Source of the DNA: Malonomonas rubra
Lineage (GTDB): Bacteria; Desulfobacterota; Desulfuromonadia; Desulfuromonadales; Geopsychrobacteraceae
DNA length: 46,686 nucleotides
Direction: 5' to 3'
NCBI RefSeq assembly: GCF_003247215.1
Contig: NZ_QKAP01000006.1
Location: 1-46,686, forward strand
Positions within the stretch are counted from its first letter, which is position 1. Each line of letters opens with the position of its first letter. The position numbers were made by a program, and so were the translations under genes. The notes beneath the pieces were generated by a model that saw nothing but the letters and a program-made list of their open reading frames with translations, was not told the origin of the DNA and did no database searches. Positions 3,752 to 39,910 of the stretch are shown one piece after another.

Positions 3752-3871
3752 AACCAAGCTGCCGCGTCTCAAAAATGAACACCCAGAGCGTACAACCGCT
3801 CAACGCCGCTAATTCTACCGTCCGGCAACCATCTCCGCAGGTTTTAGCGTCCTCCACGGCAGCCTTTGCAG

Positions 3872-3889
3872 CATGGCATGATCCTTGCC
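3872..3889 (+). promoter_or_regulatory. Sigma-54 promoter of the mobA operon
   Basis: TGGCAT-GATCC-TTGCC gives GG (3875-3876), ten bases, then GC (3887-3888), close to the -24/-12 consensus TGGCAC-N5-TTGCW. Transcription would start near 3900, about 50 bases before the mobA ATG at 3949. The palindrome at 3737 is the candidate enhancer. Confidence 0.75.
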
Positions 3890-3948
3890 AATTTCTTCCA
3901 TTAACGCGGCTACCGCGCTCACCATACGCGATCGAACAAGGATTGGCG

Positions 3949-5926: not shown

Positions 5927-5966
5927 TCTTCGTAAAGTATCTCGCTTTCCAGCGTGGGAGCCATTC

Positions 5967-19005: not shown

Positions 19006-19026
19006 GAGCAAACCCTATTCAGAATA

Positions 19027-23014: not shown

Positions 23015-25168
23015 ATGGCATTGCGGGAGCAGATTTCAGACGTTTTAGGAACTCAAGTCCTTTTTGCAAATGCCGACAAAGAAAAACTGACCAAAAAACG
23101 ATGGCACGAAATCCTTCGCTGCAAAGAAGAATTTTTGAATAACCCTTCCGCCGATCCTAGTCAGTATTCTTGCATGGACAAGGACGTCGCTGCATCCTGG
23201 ATGCGATCGCGCAAGTTGGGGGTAAATCCACACAAAATAGTCACAATCCCTAACGAAGGCCAGCTCACCAAGCTTTGTGCGAAACATAAACAACTCATAA
23301 ATATCACTAACGAGCAGGTTGCACCCTTTAGAGACAAGATGGTGGCCTTAGGCTACCTGTTTTACCTGTTTGACGAATCAGGCATGATTCTCTGCCACGA
23401 AGGAGTCTGGGTTGAAGATCAGGTTGCCGACAAAGGTTCACGCATCGGTATTCTGGCAAACGAAGAAACGGAAGGCACAACTGCTCACGGCCTCTGCTTC
23501 CATCTAAAACGACCGGTTCAACTGATTGGGCCGGAAAACTACTGCATCCCGCTGCAAAACCGGATTGCTTCAGCTGCACCGATCATGGGCGACGATGGCT
23601 CGATATCGGCAGCCGTTGTCATTCTCAGCCCTCCACTGGTCGAAGATCTGGAAGATGACAGAATCAACCACCTCTACATGCACACCCTGGCCCTGATCTC
23701 TTCAGTAGCAACCTCGATCGAAACAAAAATCAAATTAGTGAATCACTCCGCCGATTACGAAAAAACCAGGAACGAAGTCGCCAAATTGAGTGAAGAGCTG
23801 CAAAAAGCCAGAGACAAAATGGCGAGCGCCCACGAAAGCCTCAGCGCATCTTTTGCTTTCATAGACGAAGGAATGATCGCGGTTAACAATAAGGGCAAGA
23901 TTCTTCAGATTAACAGCGAAGCGATCAGAATTTTTAAAGTCCGCCCTGAAGAAAGCGGCAACCGTAATATCAGTGAGTTTCTCACCTCCGATTCTGCCAT
24001 CATGCGCCGCGCGGGTTCAGGCGAAAGCTTCACCATTGACGAGTGTATCAAGGTCGAAGGCCTCAAAGCACGACCCTACAGAATTTCGGTACGCCCGGTC
24101 CTGAATCAGTACACAAAAAAACTTGATGTCGTCATTCTGAAATTTATCAGCTGCGAAAAGCTGCTGAATCAACAAAACAACAGGATGGGAAGGGCTGCCT
24201 TCTTTAAGTTCGAGGATATTCTCGGCGAAAGCATGGCGATTAAATCTACGATTGTCCAGGCTCGCCGTTTTGCCGATTCACCAGAAAATATTCTACTAAT
24301 AGGGGAAAGTGGCACAGGTAAAGAACTGTTTGCCCACTCCATTCATAACGCCTATCGGCCGAATGGTCCCTTCATGGCCGTCAACTGTGCCGCCCTGCCC
24401 CGCGAACTGGTCGGTAGTGAACTGTTCGGCTACGAAGGTGGCAGTTTCACCGGCGCCGAACGCTGCGGCAAAGCGGGTAAAATAGAGCTGGCCGATGGCG
24501 GCACCCTGTTTCTTGACGAAATCGGCGACATGCCTCTGGAACATCAGGCAATCCTGTTACGCACACTGCAGGATAAACATGTCATGCGGATCGGTGGGAA
24601 TCGCTACAAAGAAGTTGACTTCCGGCTAGTCGCCGCTACTAACAAAGATTTGCTGAAAATGGTCGAGGAAAATACCTTCCGCGAAGACCTTTATTACCGC
24701 ATTTCCGTGCTCGGAATATTTATTCCACCGTTGAGGGAACGCGGCAAGGACATTTCCCTGCTGAGCAAACTCTTCATCCACAATTATTGTGAGCGCATGG
24801 GCTGGCCGGAGCCACAACTCAGCCCCGAAGCGGAGAAAATCATCACTCAATTCCGATGGCCGGGAAACGTCAGACAATTGCAGAATTCGATACACCACGC
24901 GATCAACACCGCAAACGGCGAAACGATCGAACCATGCAACCTCCCCAGCTATGTCCTTCAGAACTCCGCGCCTGTCACCGGAAGCAGCACTCCTCGATTC
25001 AGCGGCACAGCACCGCAAACATTTGACTTGAAAACCATAGAAAAAGAGGCGATTGAAGCCGCCCTGCAGCGTGCCAACAACTGCATCCCGACTGCGGCGG
25101 AAATGGTCGGGTTGAGCCGTTCCACTCTCTACCGTAAACTCAAGGAATACAATATCCCCATCTCCTGA
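23015..25168 (+). CDS. Sigma-54-dependent transcriptional activator, AcoR-type (GAF-PAS-AAA+-HTH)
   Basis: A 717-residue enhancer-binding protein. The N-terminal region has a WMRSRK helix and a GAF-like sensor to about residue 230. A coiled coil (235-275) and a PAS domain (about 280-385) follow. The AAA+ domain has Walker A GESGTGKE near residue 430, a GSFTGA loop near 474 in place of the usual GAFTGA, and Walker B LFLDEIGD near 498. A Fis-type HTH sits at the C-terminus (AAEMVGLSRSTLYRKL). There is no receiver domain, so it probably senses a ligand directly. AAGGAG precedes the ATG. Its central position and the repeated dyads before the flanking operons make it the likely regulator of the whole cluster. 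Confidence 0.88.
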   Translation: MALREQISDVLGTQVLFANADKEKLTKKRWHEILRCKEEFLNNPSADPSQYSCMDKDVAASWMRSRKLGVNPHKIVTIPNEGQLTKLCAKHKQLINITNEQVAPFRDKMVALGYLFYLFDESGMILCHEGVWVEDQVADKGSRIGILANEETEGTTAHGLCFHLKRPVQLIGPENYCIPLQNRIASAAPIMGDDGSISAAVVILSPPLVEDLEDDRINHLYMHTLALISSVATSIETKIKLVNHSADYEKTRNEVAKLSEELQKARDKMASAHESLSASFAFIDEGMIAVNNKGKILQINSEAIRIFKVRPEESGNRNISEFLTSDSAIMRRAGSGESFTIDECIKVEGLKARPYRISVRPVLNQYTKKLDVVILKFISCEKLLNQQNNRMGRAAFFKFEDILGESMAIKSTIVQARRFADSPENILLIGESGTGKELFAHSIHNAYRPNGPFMAVNCAALPRELVGSELFGYEGGSFTGAERCGKAGKIELADGGTLFLDEIGDMPLEHQAILLRTLQDKHVMRIGGNRYKEVDFRLVAATNKDLLKMVEENTFREDLYYRISVLGIFIPPLRERGKDISLLSKLFIHNYCERMGWPEPQLSPEAEKIITQFRWPGNVRQLQNSIHHAINTANGETIEPCNLPSYVLQNSAPVTGSSTPRFSGTAPQTFDLKTIEKEAIEAALQRANNCIPTAAEMVGLSRSTLYRKLKEYNIPIS

Positions 25169-25487: not shown

Positions 25488-25637
25488 AAAGCCCAGATCA
25501 AGCGATCAAAAACGTATCGCGAGCAACCAGGCCGTCCCCCTAAGCCTTTGAAATAATTCGCCTACTGAGCGCTGCCACGACCACGGCTGGTCAGCAGCAT
25601 GGAGAAACCTTCGATTGAGAGCTACAAGAGAGGAGTT

Positions 25638-27890
25638 ATGATCGGAAAAGTTGATTTAACCCAGGAAGGCATCGAAGTAAAAAAATCGGCCTGCTACTTC
25701 TGCCACCAGAATTGTGGCGTGCTGGCCTACGTCAAGGACAACAAGGTTCTCGGTATTGAAGGTGATCCCGAGTTCCCGACCAACCAGGGCGGCCTCTGCT
25801 GCCGCGGCAATATTGCCCTCAAGCACCTGGACCACCCCGACCGGGTTAACTACCCGCTGAAACGGGTCGGCAAGAAGGGTGAAGGCAAGTGGCAGCAGAT
25901 TCCCTGGAACCAGGCGATTCAGGAAATCGCCGCCAAGCTGTCGAGCATCCGCGAACAGTTCGGCGCCGAAGCCGTTGCCACCGCAGGCGGTACCCAGCGC
26001 ACCGATGACTGGGCGCGTCGCCGCTTCATGAACCTGTTCGGCAGCCCGAACGGCTTCCACAACTCGCACCTGTGCTGGATTCCGACCTTTATGGTGGAAA
26101 CCGCCATTTACGGCTGGTGCCCCTTCGACCTGGATATCGGCGCCAGTAAATGTATCGTCCTCTGGGGGCAGAACCCCGGCGCCTCGGGCATGCCGGAAGC
26201 GCATCACGTTGCCGAATTGCAAGACAAAGGCATGAAGGTCATCGTCATCGATCCGCGCTTCACGGAATCCGCTTCCAAAGCCGATCTCTGGCTGCCGCTG
26301 CGCCCCGGTTCCGACCTGGCCCTGGCCCTGGCCTGGATTCATGTCATCATTTATGAAGGCCTGATGGATCAGGAATTCGTCTTGGAGTACTGTGAAGGAT
26401 TCAACGAACTGGCTGAACATGTCGTTGATTTTTCACCGGAGTGGGCTGCCGAACTGACCTGGCTGACCCCCGATCAGATCCGCGCCGGCGCCTATATGTA
26501 CGCCAACAACAAACCGGGCAACATCCAGTGGGGCACCTCGGTCGACCAGATCGGCAAACCGGCCGGCGCCACCATGCATGCCCGCGCCCTCCTGCGCGCC
26601 CTGACCGGCAACCTCGATCGCCCCGGCGCCGACCTGCTGACCGGCCCCTCGCAAGACTATCTAACGGACGAGGAACTGGAAGGGAATGAATTCCTGTCGG
26701 ACGAGCAAAAGGCCAAGCAGATCGGCGCCGACAAGTTCCCGATGGTCACCTGGCCCGGTTACAGCAAGATCAGCGAGCTGACGAAAAAAACCTGGGGCAA
26801 GGCCCCGACCGCGGAGTGGATGTGCGAAGCGCACCCGCCGTCCGTGTTCCGCGCCATCGCCAGCAGCGACCCCTACCCGGTCAAGGCCCTGCTGATCTCG
26901 GCAACCAACCCGCTGGCCTCCTACGGCGAAACCAGCGTCGTGCTGGAAGCCCTGCGCAAGGTGGACTTCATGGTCGCCTGCGAGTACTGGGTCACGCCAT
27001 CCGCCATGTTCGCCGATTACATCATGCCGATCGCCGGCGCCCTGGAGCGGCCGATCATCACCAACAGCTACGGCTGCGCCGACTTCATGCTGACCTCGCA
27101 GCGCGCGATCCAACCGATGTACGAGCGCCGCAACGACTTCAATTTCTGGCGCGACCTGGGCGTAGCCCTGGGGCAGGAAGCAAACTGGCCCTGGAAGACC
27201 GTTGAGGAGGCATATTTCAGCGCAATTGCGCCGATCGGCCACGCGGTCAGCAGCTTTGATGAGTTCGTCGAGAAAATCCGCTTCCACTTCCCGGAGCGGG
27301 AATACTACAAGTACAAACGCCAGGGTTTTGCCACCCCTTCGGGCAAGGTCGAACTCTACTCGACCACCCTCAAGGAACTCGGCCTGCCACCGCTGCCGCA
27401 GTATGTCGGACCTTCGGAAAACGAAATCGACAACCCGGAACTGGCGGCGAAATTCCCTCTGGTGTTGACCACCGGCGGCGGCTTCATGCCCTTCCACCAC
27501 TCGGAGCACTTCCAGATCAAGGATATGCGCTTCCTGCGGCATTCGCCGTTCATGGACATCAATCCGGCAACGGCAAAGGAAATGGGCATCACAGACGGCG
27601 ACTGGGTCTGGATCGAAACCGCACGCGGGCGCATGCGGCAACGCGCCAATCTGACCGAAGCGATCCACCCGAAAGTGATCTATACCCAGCGCTGCTGGTG
27701 GTACCCGGAAAAGGATATGCGCGATTTCGATCTCGGTGGCGAACTCGGCGGGGCACTGGAGTCGAACGGAAACGTCTTGACCAGTACAGCGGATGATTAT
27801 TGTGACCCCTACAGTGGATCCTGGGCGAACCGCGGATTGCTCTGCCGGGTTTACAAAGTAGAGGAAGCGGACTTGAAGGAGGTAATGTGA
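25638..27890 (+). CDS. Cytoplasmic bis-MGD oxidoreductase, catalytic subunit of a PsrABC-like complex
   Basis: A 750-residue DMSO-reductase-family subunit. It has an N-terminal [4Fe-4S] motif (CYFCHQNC plus LCCRG) and all pterin-binding regions. Cys146, in SHLCWIP, is the expected Mo/W ligand. Unlike polysulfide or tetrathionate reductases it has no twin-arginine signal, so the complex would face the cytoplasm. GAGAGGAG lies directly before the ATG at 25638; an ATG at 25599 is possible but lacks a ribosome site. It is a paralogue of the protein at 5967. A ferredoxin-like subunit and an NrfD membrane subunit follow at once, so electrons probably pass to or from menaquinone. The acetylene hydratase Asp is His here. 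Confidence 0.85.
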   Translation: MIGKVDLTQEGIEVKKSACYFCHQNCGVLAYVKDNKVLGIEGDPEFPTNQGGLCCRGNIALKHLDHPDRVNYPLKRVGKKGEGKWQQIPWNQAIQEIAAKLSSIREQFGAEAVATAGGTQRTDDWARRRFMNLFGSPNGFHNSHLCWIPTFMVETAIYGWCPFDLDIGASKCIVLWGQNPGASGMPEAHHVAELQDKGMKVIVIDPRFTESASKADLWLPLRPGSDLALALAWIHVIIYEGLMDQEFVLEYCEGFNELAEHVVDFSPEWAAELTWLTPDQIRAGAYMYANNKPGNIQWGTSVDQIGKPAGATMHARALLRALTGNLDRPGADLLTGPSQDYLTDEELEGNEFLSDEQKAKQIGADKFPMVTWPGYSKISELTKKTWGKAPTAEWMCEAHPPSVFRAIASSDPYPVKALLISATNPLASYGETSVVLEALRKVDFMVACEYWVTPSAMFADYIMPIAGALERPIITNSYGCADFMLTSQRAIQPMYERRNDFNFWRDLGVALGQEANWPWKTVEEAYFSAIAPIGHAVSSFDEFVEKIRFHFPEREYYKYKRQGFATPSGKVELYSTTLKELGLPPLPQYVGPSENEIDNPELAAKFPLVLTTGGGFMPFHHSEHFQIKDMRFLRHSPFMDINPATAKEMGITDGDWVWIETARGRMRQRANLTEAIHPKVIYTQRCWWYPEKDMRDFDLGGELGGALESNGNVLTSTADDYCDPYSGSWANRGLLCRVYKVEEADLKEVM

Positions 27891-27891
27891 T

Positions 27892-28434
27892 ATGGCTCGT
27901 TATGCAATGGTCATGGACACCAGGCACTGTATAGGCTGTCATTCCTGTACGATTGCCTGCAAAATTCGCAATGAACTGCCGACCTACATGATTTACAACC
28001 CGGTCACTACGGATGGCCCGCACGGCACGTTTCCGCACCTGAACATGCTCTTTTTGCCGCTGCTCTGCATGCATTGCGACAATTCACCCTGTGTCGATGC
28101 ATGTCCGACCGGGGCTTCGGTTCAGACGGAGAACGGCATCGTTCACGTCGTCGACAAAAAGTGCGTCGGCTGCCTCTCCTGTATCATGGCCTGCCCCTAC
28201 GGCGCACGCTATCACAATCATGAGACCGGTGCGGTCAACAAGTGTAACTTCTGCCTGGACCGGGTTGAAGAAGGCATGCGCCCGCACTGCGTCGAAACCT
28301 GTCACCAGAAAGCGCGCATCTTCGGTGACCTGGATGACCCGAACAGTGAAGTCAGCAAGCTGATCAGTGAAAACCGCTCCTTCCAGCTGCTGCAGGAACT
28401 TAACACCGACCCCTGTGTCTTTTACATCTATTGA
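27892..28434 (+). CDS. Four-cluster ferredoxin-like electron transfer subunit (PsrB/PhsB type)
   Basis: A 180-residue protein with four Cys groups for four [4Fe-4S] clusters: CIGCHSCTIAC, CMHCDNSPCVDAC, CVGCLSCIMAC and CNFC...CVETC. This is the electron-wire subunit of CISM complexes, linking the bis-MGD subunit to the NrfD membrane subunit. Its ATG is one base after the stop of the catalytic gene, and AGGAGG lies inside the end of that gene. All sixteen Cys are present, so the chain looks complete, unlike the small subunit at 33753. Confidence 0.9.
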   Translation: MARYAMVMDTRHCIGCHSCTIACKIRNELPTYMIYNPVTTDGPHGTFPHLNMLFLPLLCMHCDNSPCVDACPTGASVQTENGIVHVVDKKCVGCLSCIMACPYGARYHNHETGAVNKCNFCLDRVEEGMRPHCVETCHQKARIFGDLDDPNSEVSKLISENRSFQLLQELNTDPCVFYIY

Positions 28435-28449
28435 TGGAGGCGTTGAGAA

Positions 28450-29373
28450 ATGAGTGAAAAACATCAAACCTGGGGTTGGATGCTCGCCGTCGATTTCTTT
28501 TTCGCCGGCATGGGCGGCGCCATGCTGATCGTCGCCGCCATCATCGACCTGTTTATCGGTAAAAATCAGATTTCCGTGCTGGCCAACATTGTCGGCCCGC
28601 TGTGCATGAGTGTCGGTTGCGGCTTTCTGATTCTTGAACTGGGGCGCCCGTTGCAGGCCTGGCGCGTCTTCATGAACCCCAAGGCGATCCTGACCTTCGG
28701 CGCCTGGATGATGACGTTTGCCATTATTTCCGGTTTTGTCTATGCCTCTTTCGGCATCGATTTCGGCCTGTTTTTCTGGCGTGACTGGGGCTTTCTGCGG
28801 CAGCTGCTGGCCTTGGTCAACCTGGTCACCGGCCTGGTTGTCGCCACCTATCCGGGCGTTCTGCTGGGACGCCACAAAGGGCGGCCGTTCTGGGTCGGCC
28901 CGGCCATCATGGGACTGTTCCTGCTCTCCTCCCTGGTGACCGCGCTGGCGCTGCATCTGCTCTGCGCAATGATCGCGCCGGTTGAAGGCTCCGTGCTGAA
29001 TAACCTGCCGAAGCTGCTAGCCGCCCTGCTGCTGGCCCAGGGGCTGCTGTGGGCGGGCTACCTCTGGATCAAAGCCAGCGGAACCACGGCAGCCGAAGCC
29101 GCCAGCGCGCAGCGTTGGATCAGTGGTGATCTTTCGAAAAGGTTCAAAATTTCCTTTATGCTCCTCGGCACGCTGCTGCCGCTGGTCATGTTCCTGATTC
29201 CGGTAAGTTTGTTCCAGGGGCTTGCAACACTGCTGGTTCTGTTCGGCGGAGTGACGATGCGGATGATGACTGTCACCAGCGGTAACGACCGCACTTTCCT
29301 GCCGGGGGAACTGCAGTATCGTTCCCGCCTGCCTCATGGGCACGAAAGATTCTTGAAGAAGAATTGGATTTAG
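28450..29373 (+). CDS. NrfD/PsrC-like membrane subunit
   Basis: A 307-residue integral membrane protein with eight hydrophobic segments, of the NrfD/PsrC family that exchanges electrons with (mena)quinone. Features include the FFFAGMGGAMLIVAA first segment and an LELGRPLQAWRVF loop typical of the family. GGAGG precedes the ATG. With the two upstream genes it forms a full catalytic-ferredoxin-membrane unit; since the catalytic subunit lacks an export signal, the complex probably sits on the cytoplasmic face. Confidence 0.85.
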   Translation: MSEKHQTWGWMLAVDFFFAGMGGAMLIVAAIIDLFIGKNQISVLANIVGPLCMSVGCGFLILELGRPLQAWRVFMNPKAILTFGAWMMTFAIISGFVYASFGIDFGLFFWRDWGFLRQLLALVNLVTGLVVATYPGVLLGRHKGRPFWVGPAIMGLFLLSSLVTALALHLLCAMIAPVEGSVLNNLPKLLAALLLAQGLLWAGYLWIKASGTTAAEAASAQRWISGDLSKRFKISFMLLGTLLPLVMFLIPVSLFQGLATLLVLFGGVTMRMMTVTSGNDRTFLPGELQYRSRLPHGHERFLKKNWI

Positions 29374-29507: not shown

Positions 29508-30833
29508 ATGACACAGGCAGCCGTGGCAAACAACGCTGATACAATCACAAATAAAATACTTTTGGAAGTCACGCAAAGTGTTTGCCCGGTCTGCCTGGAA
29601 GTCATTGATGCGCGCATTGTCGTCAAAGACGATGCCGTCTATATGGAAAAATCCTGCTCACAACACGGTACTTATTCAATTTATCTCTGGCCGGACGAGG
29701 AGCATTATCGCTGGCTGAAAAACTTTAAATTTCCCCAGATCCATCCGAACACAGCAAAACCGACCACCAAGGGCTGCCCCGAGGACTGTGGGCCTTGTAA
29801 ATCTCACTTACATCGCCCGCGCCTGGTCGAACTCGAACTGACGCAGCGCTGCAATTTACGTTGCCCGGTCTGCTTCATGGCTGCAGACGACAACCAGGCG
29901 AACCTTGCCACCGATCTCACGCTGGCGGAAATTGAACGCCAGCTTATCAGCATCATGAATCAGTGTGGCCCGCAAACCAGCATCCAGCTGACCGGCGGAG
30001 AGCCGACCGTGCGCGAAGACCTGCCTGACATCATCGCACTTTGTCGAGAGATCGGTTTCAGCGCAATTGAAGTCAACACCAACGGTGTCGTCATCAGTCG
30101 CGACCGCAACTACCTTGAGCGGCTCGCGGCATCCGGCGCCACCGGTATCTACATGCAGTTTGACGGCTTGGACGATCAGGTGTTCAAACAGATCCGGGGC
30201 GCCAACCTGCTGAAACTCAAATTACAGGCGATTGAAAACTGCCGTGCCATCGGCATGCAGATTGTTCTGGCAATGGCGGTGATCAGGGGAATCAACGACA
30301 ACCAGATGGGCAGAGTCCTTGAATTCGGCCTGGAAAATCGTGACGTCATTGTCGGCATAGCTTATCAGCCCGCGTTCGGTTCCGGTCGCTTCGAGGTCAG
30401 CAACCAAAAACCCCTGACTATGGGGGATGTCATCTACGAACTGTCGGAGCAGAGCAGCAACTTGCTCTCCCCCTACGATTTCTGGCCAACCGGCTGCTCG
30501 CACCCGCTCTGCGACGCGACCACTTACCTTGTCCCAAAACCCCAAGGCTTTCAGCCGATGAGCCGGATCATCAGCGTTCATGATTACCTGCACCACTTCG
30601 ACCCGTCCAGCCCGCAGGGTTCCGCGCTGCCCGATATCGCGCAAAAAATGTTCCCGGGCCAGGAACCTGGCTTGTCGATCCTGATCATGAACTATATGGA
30701 TGCGATGAGTATGGACTTGAAACGTCTCCGCCAGTGCAGCATGACGGTGGCTGGCGAGGACGGTAGCCAGATTCCGTTCTGTTCTTATCAGTTGACTAAT
30801 ATCGACGGCCTGAAACGCTCCCAGCGCGTATAA
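29508..30833 (+). CDS. Radical SAM protein of the MJ0619/tetraether-synthase-like type
   Basis: A 441-residue protein. The N-terminus has a zinc-ribbon-like part (CPVCLEV; EKSCSQHGTY) and then GCPEDCGPC, followed by the radical SAM motif CNLRCPVC (near residue 124) and QLTGGEPTVR. The C-terminal part has additional Cys (GCSHPLC). The same layout is seen in MJ0619, which methylates a pterin precursor in methanogens, and in related radical SAM methylases and lipid-coupling enzymes. It follows the PsrABC-like genes after a hairpin. A role in modifying a pterin or another cofactor of that complex is possible but not shown. GAGG precedes the ATG. Confidence 0.8.
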   Translation: MTQAAVANNADTITNKILLEVTQSVCPVCLEVIDARIVVKDDAVYMEKSCSQHGTYSIYLWPDEEHYRWLKNFKFPQIHPNTAKPTTKGCPEDCGPCKSHLHRPRLVELELTQRCNLRCPVCFMAADDNQANLATDLTLAEIERQLISIMNQCGPQTSIQLTGGEPTVREDLPDIIALCREIGFSAIEVNTNGVVISRDRNYLERLAASGATGIYMQFDGLDDQVFKQIRGANLLKLKLQAIENCRAIGMQIVLAMAVIRGINDNQMGRVLEFGLENRDVIVGIAYQPAFGSGRFEVSNQKPLTMGDVIYELSEQSSNLLSPYDFWPTGCSHPLCDATTYLVPKPQGFQPMSRIISVHDYLHHFDPSSPQGSALPDIAQKMFPGQEPGLSILIMNYMDAMSMDLKRLRQCSMTVAGEDGSQIPFCSYQLTNIDGLKRSQRV

Positions 30834-31199: not shown

Positions 31200-31217
31200 T
31201 TGGCACACTCATAGCAA
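31200..31217 (+). promoter_or_regulatory. Sigma-54 promoter of the Fe-S-less bis-MGD enzyme operon
   Basis: TGGCAC-ACTCA-TAGCA has a perfect -24 half (GG 31202-31203) and GC at 31214-31215. Transcription would begin near 31227, giving a leader of about 140 bases before the ATG at 31367; the leader contains a strong unused AAAGGAGG at about 31289. Confidence 0.7.
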
Positions 31218-31366: not shown

Positions 31367-33637
31367 ATGGCAATGAGTAAAGAATGGAAAACAGAAAATG
31401 AGGATGGCTCCATAACAGTGAGGACCTCTGCGTGGTCCCCTCCTGGAGACCATCCGGTCGGCTACGGCATGAAGCTGACCGTCAAAGGTGGGAAACTGAT
31501 TAAGGTTGAAGGTGACGAAGAGCACCCGATCAGCCAAGGTCGCCTCTGTGTTCGTAACCTGACTCTGGCTGACTACGTCCACCACCCCTCCCGTATTCTG
31601 ACCCCGATGAAGCGTAAGCTGGAAGATCGTGGTAAGAACAAGTGGACCAAGATCTCCTGGGATGAAGCCTGGGACATCATTGTTCCGAAAATCAAAGAAT
31701 TTAAAGAAAAGCACGGCGCCGAGTCGATCATCGTCTTCGGTGGTACCGGTCGTCAGGCTTGTATCTACTACTACCCCCTCGGCTTTGCCTCAATCGGCAC
31801 TCCGAACGTCTGCTACCCGCTGAGCGGCTGGTCCTGCTACGGTCCGCGCTGCTCGATCACCGACTACGTTCTCGGCGCCGGCTATCCGGAAATCGACTAC
31901 GCCGGTTTCTACGAAGATCGTTACGACGACCCGAGATTCACCTTGCCGGAACTGATCGTCGAGTGGGGTAAGAACGCTCTCTACTCCAACCCGGACGGCT
32001 TCTTTGGTCACGCCCTGATCGACATGATGAAGCGCGGCACCAAGATGATTCACATCGACCCGCGTATCACCTGGCTGGGTACCCGTTGCGAAGAAGTTTG
32101 CCAGCTGCGTCCCGGAACCGACAGCGCCCTGGGCCTCGGCTTCCTCAACGTCATCATCAACGAGGAACTGTACGACAAGGACTTCGTCGAAAACTGGACT
32201 TACGGCTTCGATGAGCTCAAAGAGCGCGTTCAAGAGTATTCGCCGGAAAAAGTTGCTGGTATCACCTGGGTTCCGGCTGACCAGATCCGTCGTTGCGCTC
32301 GTCGGATGGCAACTGCTAAGCCTTGCTCGATCCAGTGGGGTCTGGCAACCGACGAGAACCCGAACGGTGTTCAGATGGGCCACGCTATCCTGTCGCTGAT
32401 GGCCATCACCGGCAACCTCGACGTTCCCGGCGGCGTGACCATCGGTCCCCCCGCTGCACTGCTCGGTAAGTGGCGGGTTGAAACCCGGCGGAACCTGTCG
32501 GAAGAACTCTGGGAAAAGCGAATCGGCGCTGCAGAATGGCCGGCCCTCAGTACTGCCATGGCAACCACCCACCCGGACGAAACTCTGGACACTCTGGAAA
32601 GCGGCAAGCCGTACAAGTTGCGCATGGGTTGGTTCAACAGTAGTAACTTCATTACGCCGACCTGTTCGGCACAGCCTGACCGTTGGTACCATGCTCTGAA
32701 GTCCCTGGAGTTCAACGTTGTTCAGGATATCTTCATGACTCCGACCGCTATGGCTTTCGGCGATATCTTCCTGCCGGTGTCTACTTTCGCCGAGCAAGAC
32801 GGCGTCGTCGTTACCCACTTCGGCCGTAACGCTGTCACCCTCGGCCCCATCAACGAGGCTCTGCGCGTCGGCGATACCAAGTCCGATATCGAAGTTTGTA
32901 TCGAACTCGGCAAGAAGTTGCACCCGGACATGTGGGATTACAAAGACGTTCCTGACTTTTTCACCCAGCAGCTTGAGCCGGAGCTCGGTGTCAACTTTGA
33001 CAAGCTGCGTGAGATGGGCGTATTCCAGCCGAAGTACATCTACAAAAAGTACGAAAAAGGTCTGCTGCGTGGTGACGGCGAGCCTGGCTTCAATACCGTT
33101 ACCGGTATGGTCGAGCTCTCCTCGACCCTGTTCGAAGCCTGGGGTGACGATGCCCTGCCGTACTTCAAGGAGCCGCCGTACAGCCCGATCAGCACCCCGG
33201 AACTGTTCAAGGAGTACCCGCTGATTCTCACCACCGGTGCACGGAAAGTCACCTCGTTCCACTCCGAGCACCGTCAGATTGCCGTATTGCGCGAGATCGA
33301 TCCGGATCCGGAAGTCGAATTGCATCCTAGTACAGCTAAAACCCTCGGCATCAACCATGGCGACTGGGTCCTGCTCGAAAACATGTTCGGCAAAGCAAAA
33401 CTCAGAGCCAAGGTTACTCCGACCATCCACCCGAAGGTTGTGCATGCGACTCACGGCTGGTGGTTCCCGGAGAAGGATGCAGAAGAGCCGAGCCTGTTCG
33501 GTGTATGGCAGTCGAACATCAACACCCTGGTCCCGCATAAGCACATCGGTAAGCTTGGTTTCGGTTGTCCAATGAAGCAGATGATTTGTAAAGCTTCGCG
33601 TCTGGATAGCTTCGATAGCTACAACATCGAAGTCTAA
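31367..33637 (+). CDS. Bis-MGD enzyme related to catechol dehydroxylases, lacking the N-terminal [4Fe-4S] ligands
   Basis: A 756-residue DMSO-reductase-family protein. Its text is closest, by my recognition, to the catechol dehydroxylase type of gut Actinobacteria. The family's N-terminal cluster Cys are replaced: the segment reads TSAWSPPGDHPVGYG with Ala22, Asp28 and Tyr33 where relatives have Cys; only Cys61 in GRLCVRN remains. The likely metal ligand is Cys157 in GWSCYGPR. No export signal is present. AAAGGAAGG precedes the ATG at 31367. Codon use is richer in GGT, GTT and GCT than in neighbouring operons, suggesting high expression. Loss of the cluster recalls pyrogallol transhydroxylase, whose large subunit also lacks one, and suggests a reaction without outside electron flow or with a different route. 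Confidence 0.82.
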   Translation: MAMSKEWKTENEDGSITVRTSAWSPPGDHPVGYGMKLTVKGGKLIKVEGDEEHPISQGRLCVRNLTLADYVHHPSRILTPMKRKLEDRGKNKWTKISWDEAWDIIVPKIKEFKEKHGAESIIVFGGTGRQACIYYYPLGFASIGTPNVCYPLSGWSCYGPRCSITDYVLGAGYPEIDYAGFYEDRYDDPRFTLPELIVEWGKNALYSNPDGFFGHALIDMMKRGTKMIHIDPRITWLGTRCEEVCQLRPGTDSALGLGFLNVIINEELYDKDFVENWTYGFDELKERVQEYSPEKVAGITWVPADQIRRCARRMATAKPCSIQWGLATDENPNGVQMGHAILSLMAITGNLDVPGGVTIGPPAALLGKWRVETRRNLSEELWEKRIGAAEWPALSTAMATTHPDETLDTLESGKPYKLRMGWFNSSNFITPTCSAQPDRWYHALKSLEFNVVQDIFMTPTAMAFGDIFLPVSTFAEQDGVVVTHFGRNAVTLGPINEALRVGDTKSDIEVCIELGKKLHPDMWDYKDVPDFFTQQLEPELGVNFDKLREMGVFQPKYIYKKYEKGLLRGDGEPGFNTVTGMVELSSTLFEAWGDDALPYFKEPPYSPISTPELFKEYPLILTTGARKVTSFHSEHRQIAVLREIDPDPEVELHPSTAKTLGINHGDWVLLENMFGKAKLRAKVTPTIHPKVVHATHGWWFPEKDAEEPSLFGVWQSNINTLVPHKHIGKLGFGCPMKQMICKASRLDSFDSYNIEV

Positions 33638-33656
33638 AACTAAGCGTAGGAGACAT

Positions 33657-33725
33657 GGCCGGTGACGACTGCAACAGACTCACGCGCGTCGCCGGCCAGA
33701 CGTGGCCCGCGATAATAATCGCGGA
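33657..33725 (+). other. Two tandem RNA hairpins between the large and small subunit genes
   Basis: GGCCGGTGACG (33657-33667) pairs with CGTCGCCGGCC (33687-33697) with one G-U pair, and CCGCGAT pairs with ATCGCGG across three bases at 33708-33724. No T-run follows either. Such structures often protect the upstream mRNA from 3' decay and set unequal subunit amounts. Confidence 0.55.
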
Positions 33726-33752
33726 CGAAACCGAATAGAACTGGAGGAAAAA

Positions 33753-34100
33753 ATGTCCGAAAAAGAAACCAAAAACGGACTGTTGATTCACTATCAATGG
33801 TGCACCGGCTGCCACGCATGCGAGGTGGCAATCAAAAAAATCCTGAACCTGCCTGTAGGCAAGCACGGCATCAAAATGCTCGAGCACGGCCCTTGGGAGG
33901 TTACTCCGGGTAAATTTGAGTGGGATTATCTCCCCGTACCGACTCAGCTTGTCGGTTCCAACCCTGAGCTGGCTCCGGGCGAGGACGTCAAATTCGCAGT
34001 CAAGCACTGTAACGCTAAGTGCATGGAGTACGGCCCGCTGGATGAATTGGCCAAAAAGGCTGCCGAACTGGGCAACCGAGTAGCAATCTTTACCGTTTAA
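33753..34100 (+). CDS. Small Fe-S subunit with one of two ferredoxin clusters lost
   Basis: A 115-residue relative of the dicluster Fe-S subunits that pair with bis-MGD enzymes. The first motif keeps three Cys (Cys17, Cys20, Cys23 in CTGCHAC), but the fourth position is Ile27 (EVAIKK). The usual second CxxC group around residues 66-72 is replaced by LVGSNPE. The later HCNAKC gives Cys86 and Cys90. The five Cys suit one [4Fe-4S] cluster (17, 20, 23 and 90) and cannot bind a second one. GGAGG precedes the ATG at 33753. It follows the large subunit, which has also lost its cluster, so the pair seems to have shed the electron chain in a concerted way. Confidence 0.78.
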   Translation: MSEKETKNGLLIHYQWCTGCHACEVAIKKILNLPVGKHGIKMLEHGPWEVTPGKFEWDYLPVPTQLVGSNPELAPGEDVKFAVKHCNAKCMEYGPLDELAKKAAELGNRVAIFTV

Positions 34101-34230: not shown

Positions 34231-34494
34231 TCAATCAACAGGTGTGTGAAACTTACAATCGCTAACAGCCAGTTTATCAGGTTCTTTTTTATGTCGCTGA
34301 CAAGGCTTTGCACAAACTTCTTCGATGTACCGACAGTAGACAGGTTCTGGTCCCGACCTTATAGGCAAAACTTGCTTACACTTTCTACAAGTAGTCAGAT
34401 CGTGAAAGTTAAATGTACCGCAATTTTCGCATTTGCTGGGTTTTGGTTTTGGTGGTTTACAACCGCCACAATAAGGGTTGCAGGTCCAACACAT
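34231..34494 (-). CDS. Small cysteine-rich zinc-ribbon-like protein
   Basis: An 87-residue protein with about twelve Cys: MCWTCNPYCGGCKPPKPK at the start, then CENCGTF, CRKCKQ and further Cys to the C-terminus. Pairs CxxC at regular distance suggest two or more zinc ribbons or a metallothionein-like metal store. It is encoded against the direction of the surrounding operon, but a good minus-strand terminator lies directly after it, which supports a real gene. The ribosome-binding site is weak (AGAGAA). I recognise short Cys-rich proteins of this type from anaerobe redox loci but know no function. Confidence 0.65.
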   Translation of the reverse strand: MCWTCNPYCGGCKPPKPKPSKCENCGTFNFHDLTTCRKCKQVLPIRSGPEPVYCRYIEEVCAKPCQRHKKEPDKLAVSDCKFHTPVD

Positions 34495-35096: not shown

Positions 35097-35129
35097 ATTT
35101 GCGCCGCTCTCAAGCGAAGGATAATGAGA

Positions 35130-36392
35130 ATGTCAGATCAAAACTATAATCGTTGGTTGATACTGGCTGCTGCCGTGATCATGAATCTCTGTATCGGCAC
35201 ATTGTACGCCTGGAGTGTTTTTGCAAAACCCCTTGGCGCCCTGTTTTCCTGGGCTCCCCCGGCTCTCGCCCTGGCCTTTACCATTAACCATGGCCTCAGT
35301 CCTGTTTCCATGATCGGTGGCGGCTTTATCCAAGACAAGTTAGGTTCAAAAACCACCATCGTTATCGGTGGCCTGATGTTCACAGCCGGTCTTATTCTAA
35401 CTGGTTTCATAGCTGAAGGTTCGTCAATCAGCATGCTGTACCTGTCCTACAGCACCTTGGCAGGTGTTGGTGGCGGCGTTGTTTACGCCGGCACTATGGG
35501 CAACACAGTTAAATTTTTCCCCGACAAGCGCGGCTTGGCAGCAGGTATCTGCGCTGCCGGTTATGGTTGCGGTGCCATGCTCATGGCCCCTATCGCCAGT
35601 TACCTGATCGAAAAATACGGTATTCTGACCTGCTTCCAGATCCTCGGTTCCGTATTCTTTTTAGTCATTGCTCTTGCTCTGACAGTAACCAAGAGAGCAC
35701 CCGCAAATTACAAACCTGCCGGCTGGATTCCACCAGCAACCTCTAAGGTCCAAACAAACACCAACGATAACACTTGGACCCAGATGATCAGCCAGGGAAT
35801 CTGGTGGGTTATCATGATCATGCTCTATTGTGGTGCCATGTCCGGCCTGATGGTTGTTGCCCACGCCTCTCCGATCGGTCAGTTGATGTTCAACCTGTCA
35901 CCGATTAAAGCTGCATTCTTTGTCAGTATCATTACTTTGGCAAATGCAATCGGCCGAGTTGGGTTCGGTGCCCTTTCCGACAAAATCGGTCGTTCCAATA
36001 CCATTATGCTGATGTACGTTGTTTCGGCTCTCTCCATGCTTAACCTGACCTTCACCAGTTCCGTAGCTGGTTTTGCGATTTCCGGTATGGGTGTTGGTGC
36101 GGTTTTCGGTGGATTCCTCTGCCTGGTGCCGCCGATTATCGGCGAGCGTTACGGTTTGAAAAACTTTGGTGTCAACTACGGTGTGACCTTCATCGGCTTC
36201 AGCCTCGCCGCCCTAACAGGTCCGCTGCTGGCTGCAAAAGTCCGAGTTGCCACCGGCGACTACAATCAGGCCTTCTGGATTGCTCTGGGCGTGAATATAG
36301 TCGGCCTTGTTTTTGCTCTTATCTACAGAACAATGGACAATAAAAGTACCGCAGCAAAAGCTGCCTATGCTAAAAAATCGCTTGCCAGTTAA
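35130..36392 (+). CDS. OFA-type MFS transporter (oxalate/formate antiporter-like)
   Basis: A 420-residue carrier with twelve hydrophobic segments. The first segment, ILAAAVIMNLCIGTLYAWSVF, and the LGSKTTIVIGG loop are typical of the OFA family, which carries oxalate, formate and other small carboxylates. Motif ALSDKIGRSN sits between segments 8 and 9. I prefer the second ATG (35130), because AAGG stands at better distance from it than from 35124. A terminator follows at 36405. It probably imports the substrate of the enzyme upstream or exports its product; the solute is not evident. Confidence 0.85.
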   Translation: MSDQNYNRWLILAAAVIMNLCIGTLYAWSVFAKPLGALFSWAPPALALAFTINHGLSPVSMIGGGFIQDKLGSKTTIVIGGLMFTAGLILTGFIAEGSSISMLYLSYSTLAGVGGGVVYAGTMGNTVKFFPDKRGLAAGICAAGYGCGAMLMAPIASYLIEKYGILTCFQILGSVFFLVIALALTVTKRAPANYKPAGWIPPATSKVQTNTNDNTWTQMISQGIWWVIMIMLYCGAMSGLMVVAHASPIGQLMFNLSPIKAAFFVSIITLANAIGRVGFGALSDKIGRSNTIMLMYVVSALSMLNLTFTSSVAGFAISGMGVGAVFGGFLCLVPPIIGERYGLKNFGVNYGVTFIGFSLAALTGPLLAAKVRVATGDYNQAFWIALGVNIVGLVFALIYRTMDNKSTAAKAAYAKKSLAS

Positions 36393-37078: not shown

Positions 37079-37147
37079 CCGTTTGTCATATTGTCCCGGC
37101 TACCTCTGATCAACAATGGTCAACGTGACTTTAATGGAGGTTCCAAA

Positions 37148-38491
37148 GTGGAAAAAGTAATTAACGTCAATGAAGCATTTGACGATCTACCCTTTTCCTT
37201 TTATCAGATTTGGGTCTGCCTGCTCTGCTTCTCCGTCGTCTTTTTCGACGGCTTCGACCTGACAGTCATTGGGGTCACCATCCCGAAGATTGCCACCCAT
37301 CTTAATGCCAGTCCGGCAGAATTAGGACTGGCCGTCAGCGCCGGCCAACTGGGGCCGATGCTCGGCGCAGTTATCATCGGCATGTTGGCTGACCGTGTCG
37401 GACGTAAAAAGACCATGTTTTTCTGCGCACTGGTCTTCGGCTTCTTCACATTCATGATTTCCCACATTTCCAGTGTCGAGGAGCTGGCCCTGTACCGTTT
37501 CCTGGCCGGACTCGGCATGGGTGGCGCCATTCCCAACGCACTGGCTTTCGGCAGCGAGTATGCTCCCTCCAGGTTGCGTGCTTCACTGTCGCTTTACATG
37601 TGGGCGGGGATGCCGACCGGCGCCATGATCGCCGCCTTTTCAGCGTCCTATCTGCTACCCAACTACGGTTGGCAGTCCGTCTATTTTATTGGTGGCTTGG
37701 TCCCGGTGATCATCGCCTTTATAATCTTGCTGTTTCTCCCAGAATCCCTCCAGCACCTGGTTGGTAGCGGTTCCAAGAAAGCAATGGACAAGGCTTATGG
37801 AATTCTCAGCCGTATCAACCAGAATCTGCCGAGCGCCAACAATGTCAAACTGACCATGCCGACCACAACCAAAGAAAGCAAAGGATCGGTCAAGACCCTC
37901 TTTACCGGCGATCGCATGGTGACAACCCTGCTGATCTGGCTGCTTTTCTACTTAAGCTTCTATCTGCTCTGGATTCTGTTCTCCTGGGTCCCGACCCTGC
38001 TCAAACAGAGCGGCGCAACGGTTCAGCAATACAGCATGGGCTTTGCCTTTATCCACATGGGCTCGGTCATCGCCTGCTTCTGCATTGGCCGCTGTATGAG
38101 TAAATTTAACAAGCTCAACGTTGTTAAGTATCTATTTATCGGTGCCTTTATCGCGATGCTTGCCTTCGGCTATTTCTCATCCCACAGTTTCTACATCGTC
38201 ATCGTGGTTTCGATTTTCACCGGGATGCTGGTCAATGGAGGCAACTCTTCACTGATGGGACTGGCCTCAGCCGTCTATCCATCAGAAGCACGTGCAACCG
38301 GGATCGGCTGGGCTTACGGAATCGGTAAGATCGGCTCCCTCATCGCTCCGGTTATCGGCGGTCTCTATTTGTCGCGCAACTGGAGTGTTTTCAAGATTTG
38401 CGCAATTAACGGCTCAAGCGCTCTGGTCATTGCCGTGATCGTTATCATCTTGCAACGCTATATGCGCGCGTCGGCAAGCGGCGAGGTTTGA
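37148..38491 (+). CDS. AAHS-family aromatic acid:H+ symporter (MFS)
   Basis: A 447-residue carrier of the aromatic acid:H+ symporter family. The first segment holds FDGFDLTVIGVTIPKI, with the DGxD motif needed for aromatic acid transport, and GMLADRVGRKKT forms the loop between segments 2 and 3. The family includes PcaK and BenK, which import 4-hydroxybenzoate, benzoate and protocatechuate. GGAGG lies eight bases before the GTG at 37148. A strong terminator follows at 38521. It is the best single clue that the cluster handles an aromatic or cyclic carboxylic acid. Confidence 0.85.
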   Translation: MEKVINVNEAFDDLPFSFYQIWVCLLCFSVVFFDGFDLTVIGVTIPKIATHLNASPAELGLAVSAGQLGPMLGAVIIGMLADRVGRKKTMFFCALVFGFFTFMISHISSVEELALYRFLAGLGMGGAIPNALAFGSEYAPSRLRASLSLYMWAGMPTGAMIAAFSASYLLPNYGWQSVYFIGGLVPVIIAFIILLFLPESLQHLVGSGSKKAMDKAYGILSRINQNLPSANNVKLTMPTTTKESKGSVKTLFTGDRMVTTLLIWLLFYLSFYLLWILFSWVPTLLKQSGATVQQYSMGFAFIHMGSVIACFCIGRCMSKFNKLNVVKYLFIGAFIAMLAFGYFSSHSFYIVIVVSIFTGMLVNGGNSSLMGLASAVYPSEARATGIGWAYGIGKIGSLIAPVIGGLYLSRNWSVFKICAINGSSALVIAVIVIILQRYMRASASGEV

Positions 38492-38597: not shown

Positions 38598-38797
38598 TGA
38601 GACAGGGAATCCCAAAACGAGACAGTATCCGTCCACTGAAAAGTCCATGAATTTCGAGCGCTGCGCCGCATCTCCGCAGTCTATAAGCGACAAACCAAGA
38701 CATGACGGCGTTAGAATGCAGGGAACCGTGTCCCAAGTAAGGTTTGGCTTGTTTTTTGTAGTAAACAGAAGCAAAAGTTCCGCGGATTGCTATGTGC
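38598..38797 (+). promoter_or_regulatory. Candidate activator site and weak sigma-54 promoter of the trigger-factor-like gene
   Basis: A TGAGAC half-site (38598-38603) and ATCCCA-AAA-CGAGAC (38609-38623) resemble the dyads before the other operons. Two possible -24/-12 elements follow: TTGGC-TTGTTTT-TTGTA (GG at 38746, GT instead of GC) and GG-N10-GC at 38784-38797. Neither is a strong match. The 380 bases between 38491 and 38873 hold a terminator and these sites, and no gene that I can see. Confidence 0.35.
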
Positions 38798-38872
38798 AGG
38801 AGACCTTGTTTAAAGATTTTCGTCAAAGCGCTGCTCTCTGAGAGACTCCACATAAAGAACAGGAGAATAACC

Positions 38873-39910
38873 ATGACGGTCACAATGTTGAAATCGAGCG
38901 AAGAAGAAGCTCTCTTCAAAATTGAAATCGACGCCGATACGATCGAAAAAGCGATCACAGCGGAATTCGTGAAAGCGACGGAGAAAGAGAACAAACCGCC
39001 ACAGGGTTTGCCATTAAGCATCCGTGCCATGATGGCCAAGCACCCGGATCTGGAGAGGATTGCAGCGAAGGCTCTGAACAATATTTTGCCTTCCTACTAC
39101 ATGAGCGCCCTCAAGACGCTCGACCTGGCTCCGATGACCTACCCGAAAATCATGCCGCAGGAAACCAAGCTGGGAGCGCCCTGTGTCGTCAAAATCCAGG
39201 TTGCCCTGGAACCCAAAATCGCTCTGGTGAAATACGAGGGGCTGGAAGCGAGCTATGTCCCGGTAGTCGTCACGGAAGAGGATGTGAATCAACAGGTTAA
39301 GGGGATAAAACAGCAACGAGGTGCTGCCAATGATGAAAAACTGCTCGCCAACCTCCCTTTCGATTCGATCGAGGCGTTCACGGCCGAAGTGCATACGTCC
39401 CTGTTGACACTGGCGCAAGAAAGTACCGAACGGAACATCAAACAAGCGGTCATTAAAAAATTAATCGAAGAAAACCCCTGCCCGCTCAGGGAAGAGGCGG
39501 TCGAGCAGCAGATCATGCTGCAGATCAACCAGTTCCGCCAGCATGTCGGCGGAAAAAAGTTCGACGATTACCTCAAAACGACAAATCGGACCCTGGAGGA
39601 CGCGAAAAAGGAAATTCGCCCGGAAGCCGAGGCAACCGTCAGGAAAAATCTGCTGTTGTCGGCGATAGCGGACAGCCTGCAACTTGAAGTCACGGAAGAA
39701 GACATCAAAAAGGCTCTTTTGCAGCAGGAAAACTCCATCATGGATATGGCTCTCAATTTCGATGCGCGCCTCAAGCGTCTGGAAAAGACCCCTGGAGCCA
39801 AAGAGCAACTTATCCACTCGATCCGGCTGACAAAGGCAACCGATTACATTATCGACAAAGCGACCCTGAGTGAAGAAGAGCCGGTTCGAGTCCTGGAAGA
39901 GCGGCGCTAG
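38873..39910 (+). CDS. Trigger-factor-like chaperone without PPIase domain
   Basis: A 345-residue protein with the N-terminal and C-terminal helical domains of trigger factor (EEDVNQQVKGIKQQ and the long helical tail). The central FKBP-type PPIase domain of about 85 residues is missing: a short linker around residue 150-160 joins directly to the C-terminal domain (LLANLPFDSIEAFTAEV). The ribosome-docking signature GFRxGKxP is changed to PQGLPLSI, so it may not bind the ribosome exit site. CAGGAG precedes the ATG. A dedicated chaperone for one of the large cofactor enzymes of the cluster is a reasonable inference. Confidence 0.75.
   Translation: MTVTMLKSSEEEALFKIEIDADTIEKAITAEFVKATEKENKPPQGLPLSIRAMMAKHPDLERIAAKALNNILPSYYMSALKTLDLAPMTYPKIMPQETKLGAPCVVKIQVALEPKIALVKYEGLEASYVPVVVTEEDVNQQVKGIKQQRGAANDEKLLANLPFDSIEAFTAEVHTSLLTLAQESTERNIKQAVIKKLIEENPCPLREEAVEQQIMLQINQFRQHVGGKKFDDYLKTTNRTLEDAKKEIRPEAEATVRKNLLLSAIADSLQLEVTEEDIKKALLQQENSIMDMALNFDARLKRLEKTPGAKEQLIHSIRLTKATDYIIDKATLSEEEPVRVLEERR

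Follow-up and report, generated by a model that had tools for sequence, protein, structure and literature searches.

We analyzed a 46,686-nucleotide stretch of the genome of Malonomonas rubra (positions 1 to 46,686 of contig NZ_QKAP01000006.1; "the window" means this whole stretch). It encodes a two-subunit enzyme of the bis-molybdopterin guanine dinucleotide (bis-MGD) type, and both subunits have lost cysteines that are putative ligands of iron-sulfur clusters in their relatives. The two genes are as follows:

31367..33637, + strand: large subunit, 756 amino acids (aa), bis-MGD enzyme; open frame, with alternative starts at 31346 or 31373
33753..34100, + strand: small subunit, 115 aa; a ferredoxin-fold protein that lacks one of the two predicted 4Fe-4S sites

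The genes are separated by 115 nt, and no gene for a membrane subunit lies directly beside them. A first-pass annotation, made from the DNA letters alone, had described this pair. Both genes are open where it placed them, and all of the residues that it named are in the translations (Ala22, Asp28, and Tyr33 of the large subunit; Cys17, 20, 23, 86, and 90, Ile27, and LVGSNPE of the small subunit).

The large subunit matches the Pfam families Molybdopterin (3.9e-26) and Molydop_binding (2.2e-20), and PF00384, PF01568, and PF04879 are all above their cutoffs. Its top match among solved structures is acetylene hydratase (2e7z, E = 1.5e-82). The AlphaFold2 (AF2) model of the large subunit has a predicted local distance difference test score (pLDDT) of 90.8 and matches 2e7z with Z = 39.1 across 691 residues. 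The model of the small subunit (pLDDT 92.3) has the fold of the beta subunits of the FdnH/PsrB type (Z = 8.7 to 1kqf_B and 8.0 to 2vpw_B). We assign the large subunit to the MopB/DMSO reductase superfamily and, within it, to the branch of catechol dehydroxylases and acetylene hydratase, which bears out the dehydroxylase relationship proposed in the first-pass annotation. The closest match to the large subunit elsewhere in the window's genome, which is 99.5% complete, is just 35% identical. A search of plasmids found 1117 matching records, every one of them less than 60% identical.

We compared 162 distinct large subunits: 3 from clade A, which is the window's clade; 31, 2, and 3 from clades B, C, and D, which also have altered ligands; and 123 others, which we call intact. 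Of these 123 rows, 120 cover all five of the ligand columns described below, and 3 are without some column. The window's own copy (L001) was excluded from the conservation and ligand counts, but it was included among the 124 sequences of the comparison of fixed changes. From the alignment to relatives, the putative cluster site of the large subunit comprises positions 21, 28, 33, 61, and 64. The window's protein has Ser21, Asp28, Tyr33, Cys61, and Asn64; these residues and the expected metal ligand are encoded at

31427..31429, + strand: Ser21; Ser in the window and L017, Cys in L018 and in close intact relatives
31448..31450, + strand: Asp28; close relatives that bear the cluster have Asp or Glu here, and many distant ones have Cys; in the alignment to acetylene hydratase, it falls on the second motif Cys
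31463..31465, + strand: Tyr33, replacing Cys33; Cys in 120/120 intact rows
31547..31549, + strand: Cys61, the sole cluster-site Cys left in the window's large subunit
31556..31558, + strand: Asn64, replacing Cys64; Cys in 104/120 intact rows
31835..31837, + strand: Cys157, the expected Mo/W ligand (a family-based assignment); Cys in 163/163 rows

Like Cys33, Cys61 is present in 120/120 intact rows, while Cys21 is present in 75/120 and Cys28 in 65/120, with Asp or Glu at position 28 in 55/120. Overall, 20 of the intact rows have Cys at all five positions, 84 have four, and 16 have three. The close cluster-type relatives (73-88% identical) have Asp or Glu at position 28 and Cys at the other four. 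Hence Asp28 is not part of the loss, contrary to the first-pass annotation. That annotation also counted Ala22 as a lost cluster Cys, but Ala22 is commonplace (60 of the 124 sequences), and the position that really changed is 21. Its third replacement, Tyr33, stands, and the change of Cys64 to Asn was absent from its list.

When a profile of the intact sequences was aligned with acetylene hydratase and PsrA, positions 28, 33, and 61 fell on Cys of the N-terminal motif, and Cys33 aligned with the third motif Cys of both proteins. These motif Cys bind the 4Fe-4S clusters of acetylene hydratase and PsrA. At the three positions that align with motif Cys of acetylene hydratase, the window's protein has Cys61 alone. 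His29, which is present in 120/120 intact rows, aligns with the Asp that follows the second motif Cys of acetylene hydratase. The spacing in this family departs from the canonical CxxCxxxC, and the ligands seem to be Cys33, Cys61, and Cys64 plus either Cys28 or Cys21.

We infer that the large-subunit cluster is missing from the window's protein. We also considered whether the cluster might be held by other ligands, such as Asp28, Cys61, His29, and one more. These three residues are present, and L018 retains Cys21. However, the window's protein has just one Cys at the five positions and clade B has none, and we consider a cluster with alternative ligands to be very unlikely.

The small subunit has eight ligand positions (17, 20, 23, 27, 67, 70, 82, and 86), and each of them is Cys in 115/115 partners of intact large subunits. 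The window's small subunit reads CCC-I-V-N-A-C at these positions:

33801..33821, + strand: Cys17, Cys20, and Cys23, kept (cluster I, with Cys86 at 34008-34010)
33831..33833, + strand: Ile27, where motif 1 normally has its fourth Cys (cluster II)
33951..33962, + strand: Val67 and Asn70, at the two Cys positions of CxxC (cluster II)
33996..33998, + strand: Ala82, where motif 2 normally has its third Cys (cluster II)

In ferredoxins with two clusters, each cluster draws on both motifs: the first three Cys of one motif go with the last Cys of the other. Given this pairing, one whole cluster site is gone from the small subunit and the other is complete, which agrees with the first-pass claim that the second cluster was lost. 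By analogy to the pairing in beta subunits, the lost site is presumably the distal cluster, where electrons enter, and the kept site is presumably the cluster that adjoins the large subunit. Of the five Cys that the first-pass annotation listed as kept, Cys17, Cys20, Cys23, and Cys86 are ligand positions. We do not count Cys90 as a ligand because position 90 is variable: many relatives have Ala, Val, or something else there.

A quick tree of the large subunits (123 of 157 rows remained after near-duplicates were removed, and the ligand columns were masked) placed the loss states in four clades, each with a Shimodaira-Hasegawa-like approximate likelihood ratio test (SH-aLRT) value of 100. Clade A includes the window's protein, L017, and L018; its nearest relatives, L013 and L029, are intact and 86-88% identical. 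Clade B has the ligand state NSYNN and is from the Coriobacteriia (L109-L114 and L129-L153). Clade C has the state CEWNG (L118, from a Raoultibacter timonensis genome, and L054), and clade D has the state NDAPM (L177, L178, and a second Raoultibacter locus, L102:9259-11655).

Grouping A and B as a single clade was rejected by the approximately unbiased (AU) test (P = 0.0007), so the double loss arose at least twice. In contrast, holding B and C together improved the likelihood by 13.4 log units (AU P = 0.64), and both of these clades share C61N. The quick tree's count of four independent losses in the large subunit is weakened because B and C as one event scores better. Judging from these trees, loss of the large-subunit ligands happened three or four times independently. 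Within B + C, the loss in the small subunit may have come later, in B only.

Across the 115 tree rows with both subunits, 98 have lost neither set of ligands, 4 have lost the large-subunit ligands only, 13 have lost both, and none has lost the small-subunit ligands only. In clades C and D, the small subunit with eight Cys is intact in 5/5 rows. The first-pass annotation had proposed parallel loss in the two subunits, and this is confirmed in the window and in two further genomes (G090 and G081). More broadly, the annotation's own refuting condition, separate loss in the two subunits, had a mixed outcome: the large-subunit ligands can be lost alone, as in clades C and D, but both of the events of small-subunit loss (2/2) occurred together with large-subunit loss. 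On the quick tree with four losses, which was also used for the four-change coupling count, the loss lineages account for 7.3% of the tree's length, and the probability of both of two randomly placed small-subunit losses landing on them is about 0.005.

Two of the replacements, C33Y and C64N, arose in both of the double-loss clades (A and B) and were seen in no other rows, save the window's own copy. Three further changes in clade A match the consensus of clade B (I168V, K389A, and A494P). We considered whether these reflect convergence at the active site, but none of the three could be tied to it.

The clade B pair is present in 31 genomes of Coriobacteriia, one per species, and the proteins are mostly 81-87% identical (72% for L114). 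The clade B small subunit has at most one of the eight ligand Cys (YFSGNHAAEIACKEELG); Cys27 is left in 29 of 30, and L114 has none. We inspected 31 large and 30 small subunits of this clade by residue, and matches in G333, G365, and G366 and a second copy in G367 fell outside this set. The named loci that led to genomes of this clade were from Ellagibacter (L077), Gordonibacter (L060), Raoultibacter (L061), and Adlercreutzia (L066), along with two metagenome-assembled genomes (MAGs; L055 and L059). When we searched the Eggerthellaceae, the family of the Ellagibacter genome, 34 of 138 genomes matched a clade B protein at E ≤ 1e-300, and 33 of these had a place with at least 75% identity. Of 277 genomes in the window's class, 12 matched at E ≤ 1e-130, and three of these are clade A, including the window's own. 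A search of 395 genomes sampled from the window's phylum gave two further genomes with matches at E ≤ 1e-200, both of them 47% identical. In 82 + 250 further genomes around the Desulfosporosinus and Sporomusa records, we found clade D (L177 and L178); all other rows there had Cys33 and Cys61.

Outside of the ligand sites, the clade A large subunit has changed little at conserved positions. Among the 123 others, 72 columns reach 97% conservation or more, and clade A breaks just one of them (C33Y). For the same columns, clade B breaks three (C33Y, C61N, and P194S), as do clade C (C33W, C61N, and A254C) and clade D (C33A, C61P, and G117N). At a threshold of 90% (150 columns), clade A breaks 2, while clades B, C, and D break 17, 8, and 9, so these three clades changed beyond the ligand sites as well. 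The small subunit has 10 columns at 97%: clade A breaks C27I, C67V, C70N, G77E, and C82A; clade B breaks seven, all of them ligand Cys; and clades C and D break none. Relative to its sisters and the outgroup, clade A has 25 fixed changes in the large subunit. If these were 25 random sites, the probability of including two or more of the four Cys ligand sites would be 0.006.

The genes are also under strong purifying selection. Compared with L017 and L018, the ratio of nonsynonymous to synonymous substitution rates (dN/dS, from simple Nei-Gojobori counts) is 0.035 and 0.034 for the large subunit and 0.090 and 0.053 for the small subunit (dS of 0.8-1.3). The dN of the small subunit to the intact sisters is 0.31-0.34, versus 0.08 between the two sisters. 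From these distances, the small subunit appears to have diverged strongly from its intact sisters and then to have come under constraint again. Both losses are also present in G090 and G081, which belong to another family (large subunits 96% identical), and this excludes a sequencing artifact in the window. Gene decay or a sequencing error is thus contradicted by the shared losses and by dN/dS of 0.03-0.09, and we view it as extremely improbable. The first-pass annotation had likewise argued for selection and not decay.

Could the pair instead be a paralog that is catalytically dead or regulatory but keeps its fold and its pterin? Pseudoenzymes typically lose invariant ligands. Also, G090 and G081 each hold a second, intact pair, whose large subunit is 74% identical to the window's, although this is also what we would expect if the stripped pair has a different job. 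However, 71 of the 72 top conserved columns are kept, Cys157 is conserved in every row, and the window's genome lacks a close intact paralog. The evidence for expression also argues against a dead enzyme. Codon bias is strong, with an effective number of codons of 38.6 (third lowest of 23 genes in the window) and the highest C-ending fraction (0.80), so the first-pass claim of high-expression codon use holds up. There is also a promoter-like sequence upstream:

31201..31216, + strand: sigma-54 (-24/-12) promoter-like box TGGCACACTCATAGCA, GG-N10-GC, 166 nt before the ATG at 31367

TGGCACACTCATAGCA is the sole exact match to the pattern within the window. With up to one mismatch, there are 3 matches versus 4.0 expected by chance, so the count across the window is uninformative. 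But in 7/7 homologs examined (the window, L017, L018, L013, L012, L019, and L021), the 500 nt upstream of the large-subunit gene include such a box, and the strict pattern was found upstream of 0/6 other genes in the window. The codon bias, taken with the conserved sigma-54-type box, suggests an enzyme that is induced and abundant, and we think it unlikely that the pair is catalytically dead.

The genes around the pair include several that recur with it:

20441-21124: flavin-reductase-domain gene, in the same island as the molybdenum-cofactor genes described below
23015..25168, + strand: sigma-54-dependent regulator, PrdR-like (below the family cutoff); Sigma54_activat 8.9e-63, NF041552 1.3e-115; synteny conserved
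25599..29373, + strand: membrane molybdoenzyme operon, with MopB2 (cluster-type Cys motif), a DmsB-like Fe-S protein, and an NrfD-like membrane subunit; recurrent neighbor
29508..30833, + strand: radical S-adenosylmethionine (SAM) protein of the TrsS/Tes type; NF045646 4.9e-112, below cutoff; recurrent neighbor
34231..34494, - strand: Cys-rich protein of 87 aa; 40-80% identical in many compared loci; no Pfam match; recurrent neighbor
35124..36392, + strand: major facilitator superfamily (MFS) transporter, lactate/OFA family; NF049980, above cutoff; recurrent neighbor
37091..38491, + strand: AAHS-like MFS transporter (aromatic acid/H+ symport); TIGR00895 1.5e-98, below cutoff; recurrent neighbor

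In both G090 and G081, the sigma-54 regulator, the MopB2-DmsB-NrfD operon, the radical SAM protein, the pair, the 87-aa protein, the MFS transporter, a TetR gene, and the AAHS-type transporter recur together. Some members of this set are also found in G018, G011 (from the same family as the window's genome), and G252, in an Acidobacteriota MAG (L031), and in Selenomonadales MAGs (L032, L034, and L036). The conserved regulator is likely the activator of the pair. The AAHS-like transporter hints at an aromatic acid as the substrate. The 87-aa protein is found in many Desulfuromonadales-like and Firmicutes loci and is 40% identical in a clade B locus (L059); it is possibly a maturation or assembly factor. 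The radical SAM protein is close to TrsS and tetraether synthase and is found with the MopB2-DmsB-NrfD operon in several phyla.

The pair lies in a molybdenum-cofactor island that includes a MoaB-MobB fusion, MobA, two DUF2064 proteins, and MoaA (at 30-1052, 3514-4722, 8295-9047, 18286-19011, and 19464-20465). The island encloses three MopB enzymes (5661-8198, 25599-27890, and 31367-33637). The window also contains a 1032-aa fusion of radical SAM, methyltransferase, and DUF5714 domains (13041-16139, - strand), which resembles the selenoprotein families of the MbdU/ArsM type and has conserved synteny. Downstream of the pair, the trigger-factor-like, Old Yellow Enzyme (OYE), DUF169, and OprD genes had no match in the compared stretches of G090 and G081. 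The trigger-factor-like protein (38792-39910) scored 119.6 bits versus a cutoff of 180.2, and a tRNA-Ser that ARAGORN called inside its gene, on the opposite strand (39057-39149), is probably a false positive.

We also asked whether other genes would identify the pathway. The benzoyl-CoA pathway was set aside as the context since its hydrolase (TIGR03200) was above cutoff in 0/7 genomes examined. No substrate could be named from synteny in Gordonibacter, where just 2 of 8 proteins had a match in Pfam (a UvrD helicase and a methyltransferase-domain protein) and many of the predicted proteins seem to be antisense artifacts in high-GC DNA.

We propose that the pair is a functional and probably soluble bis-MGD enzyme that is cut off from external electrons and most likely runs a redox-neutral cycle at the metal, and we give this reading roughly an even chance, whether the large-subunit losses number three or four. 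The ancestor would have been a reductase of two subunits: the large one would have held cluster ligands close to the metal, and the small one would have carried two 4Fe-4S clusters. The supply of electrons would then have been severed at two points, by loss of the large-subunit cluster site and of one relay cluster out of two, and the cluster that is retained in the small subunit would perhaps be structural, at the subunit interface. As in the dehydroxylase half-reaction, the phenolic hydroxyl would bind the reduced metal and its oxygen would go to the metal. To reset the metal without two electrons from outside, the oxygen could be passed on, either to another phenol molecule or to a different place on the first one. 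The outcome would be transhydroxylation or a hydroxyl shift; our second choice would be hydration or dehydration, as in acetylene hydratase. Clades C and D, with their intact small subunits, would resemble the layout of pyrogallol transhydroxylase. A preliminary published proposal for a catechol dehydroxylase has the phenolic oxygen transferred to Mo (PMC7028382), and the electrons are thought to arrive via the small 4Fe-4S protein (PMC7028382 and PMC11887054).

What favors the redox-isolated reading is that an entire cluster of the small subunit was lost on top of the loss in the large subunit. The double loss in clade B, which arose separately from that in clade A, also suggests chemistry without an outside supply of electrons. 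And the setting fits, with molybdenum-cofactor genes, a sigma-54 regulator, and a transporter of the aromatic acid type. We infer the missing flow of external electrons, the type of reaction, and the aromatic acid substrate from sequence.

Alternatively, the enzyme might still carry out net redox chemistry, as a reductive dehydroxylase or an oxidative hydroxylase, if the metal exchanges electrons directly with a diffusible donor or with an unlinked protein, as in DorA, TorA, and BisC. TorA, BisC, and RhL are without the N-terminal cluster, yet they are redox enzymes. Several members of the superfamily, including the redox enzyme DorA, are without the N-terminal cluster (PMC10100899). The gene with a flavin-reductase domain in the island is a potential source of electrons under this alternative. 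Also, the large subunit is 86-88% identical to its closest intact relatives and has just 25 clade-specific fixed changes, so the reaction may be unchanged. On the other hand, the pair's neighbors (the radical SAM protein, the Cys-rich 87-aa protein, and the MFS transporters) include no evident replacement for the electron carrier. Furthermore, the partner was kept and stripped, instead of being swapped for another redox protein, and the partner in Coriobacteriia has at most one of eight ligand Cys. We consider direct exchange of electrons to be the main rival, less likely than our reading but with a substantial chance.

Several other observations weigh against a redox-neutral enzyme. First, given DorA and similar redox enzymes, loss of the cluster is by itself no proof of redox neutrality, and we identified no site for a second substrate in the pair. 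Second, the two losses are not strictly coupled, given the large-only loss in clades C and D, and in a formal test of independent pairs, 1-2 of 3 contrasts were concordant and 0 were opposite, where 3-4 contrasts cannot reach significance. Third, some of the intact rows may bind no cluster: they are without the canonical first Cys, position 28 is Asp or Glu in 55/120, and 16/120 have three Cys at the five positions. The AF2 model of the large subunit is also shaky at residues 25-27 (pLDDT below 50). Fourth, a review states that the catalytic subunits of Gordonibacter-type enzymes are without the Fe-S motif of the Eggerthella ones and yet are active reductive enzymes (PMC11574389). If Gordonibacter-type enzymes truly have no cluster, then the loss of Cys33 and Cys64 means less; the unusual spacing of the Cys in this family may explain the claim. 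Finally, the genes downstream (OYE, trigger-factor-like, DUF169, and OprD) are unmatched in the compared stretches of G090 and G081 and so tell us little about the pathway.

If the redox-neutral reading is true, then a respiratory reductase becomes a fermentative isomerase by losing its electron wire. It usually takes biochemistry to learn whether a metal-pterin enzyme is a reductase or a redox-neutral transferase, and here, one family appears to have switched its mode three or four times naturally. Clade A and its intact relatives, at 86-88% identity, form a matched pair for probing the role of the cluster beside the metal. Because the Coriobacteriia version is present in 31 genomes from relatives of known gut bacteria, a reaction in the gut may depend on it. 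We found no account of such a stripped pair in the openly accessible papers that we searched. More specifically, we propose that reductases of the catechol dehydroxylase type repeatedly gave rise to Cys-ligated aryl transhydroxylases or hydroxyl-shift isomerases, which would be convergent with the Ser-ligated pyrogallol transhydroxylase; we put the chance of this at somewhat below even.

How does the pair compare with known systems? Reductases of the DorA/TorA/BisC type have a Ser ligand and receive electrons from cytochromes or thioredoxin-like partners, and they have no stripped ferredoxin subunit. Like the window's large subunit, as we read it, TorA and BisC are MopB enzymes without the N-terminal cluster. 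DorA is another such enzyme (PMC10100899).

The Gordonibacter-type catechol dehydroxylases (Dodh, Gp Hcdh, and Eadh1-3) have two cytosolic subunits and MFS genes nearby (PMC7028382, PMC11887054, and PMC12771579). They share with the window's pair a bis-MGD large subunit, a small subunit of the 4Fe-4S type, and the nearby MFS genes. Coriobacteriia homologs with this two-gene layout, including loci from Gordonibacter records and from Eggerthellaceae, are in our tree. The intact Coriobacteriia homologs keep Cys33, Cys61, mostly Cys64, and the eight Cys of the small subunit, whereas the window's pair has lost Cys33, Cys64, and four of the small-subunit Cys.

Acetylene hydratase is a single-subunit enzyme that retains its 4Fe-4S cluster. 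The enzyme from Pelobacter acetylenicus (2e7z) is the best match to the large subunit by both sequence and fold, and it provides a non-redox reaction on this branch. The residue that aligns with His29 of the window's family is, we presume, its catalytic Asp13. The metal ligand is listed as Cys for acetylene hydratase and Ser for pyrogallol transhydroxylase (PgtL) in PMC10100899. In the window's family, the expected ligand is Cys157.

Pyrogallol-phloroglucinol transhydroxylase (AthL/AthS, PgtL; 4v4c) is also a two-subunit bis-MGD enzyme, and its small subunit has a related fold (4v4c_B, Z = 5.2). Its large subunit is without a cluster, its small subunit keeps its clusters, and its reaction has no net external redox. 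The first-pass annotation had likened the window's pair to this enzyme. The part of the likeness that concerns how the enzyme works may hold, but membership in the transhydroxylase family is not supported by sequence: 4v4c_A is a remote match (E = 1.1e-6, versus 1.5e-82 for acetylene hydratase) from another branch, and the position expected to hold the metal ligand is Cys157 in 163/163 rows of the window's family. Pyrogallol transhydroxylase thus seems to be a convergent parallel: the window's pair probably works like it but is not one.

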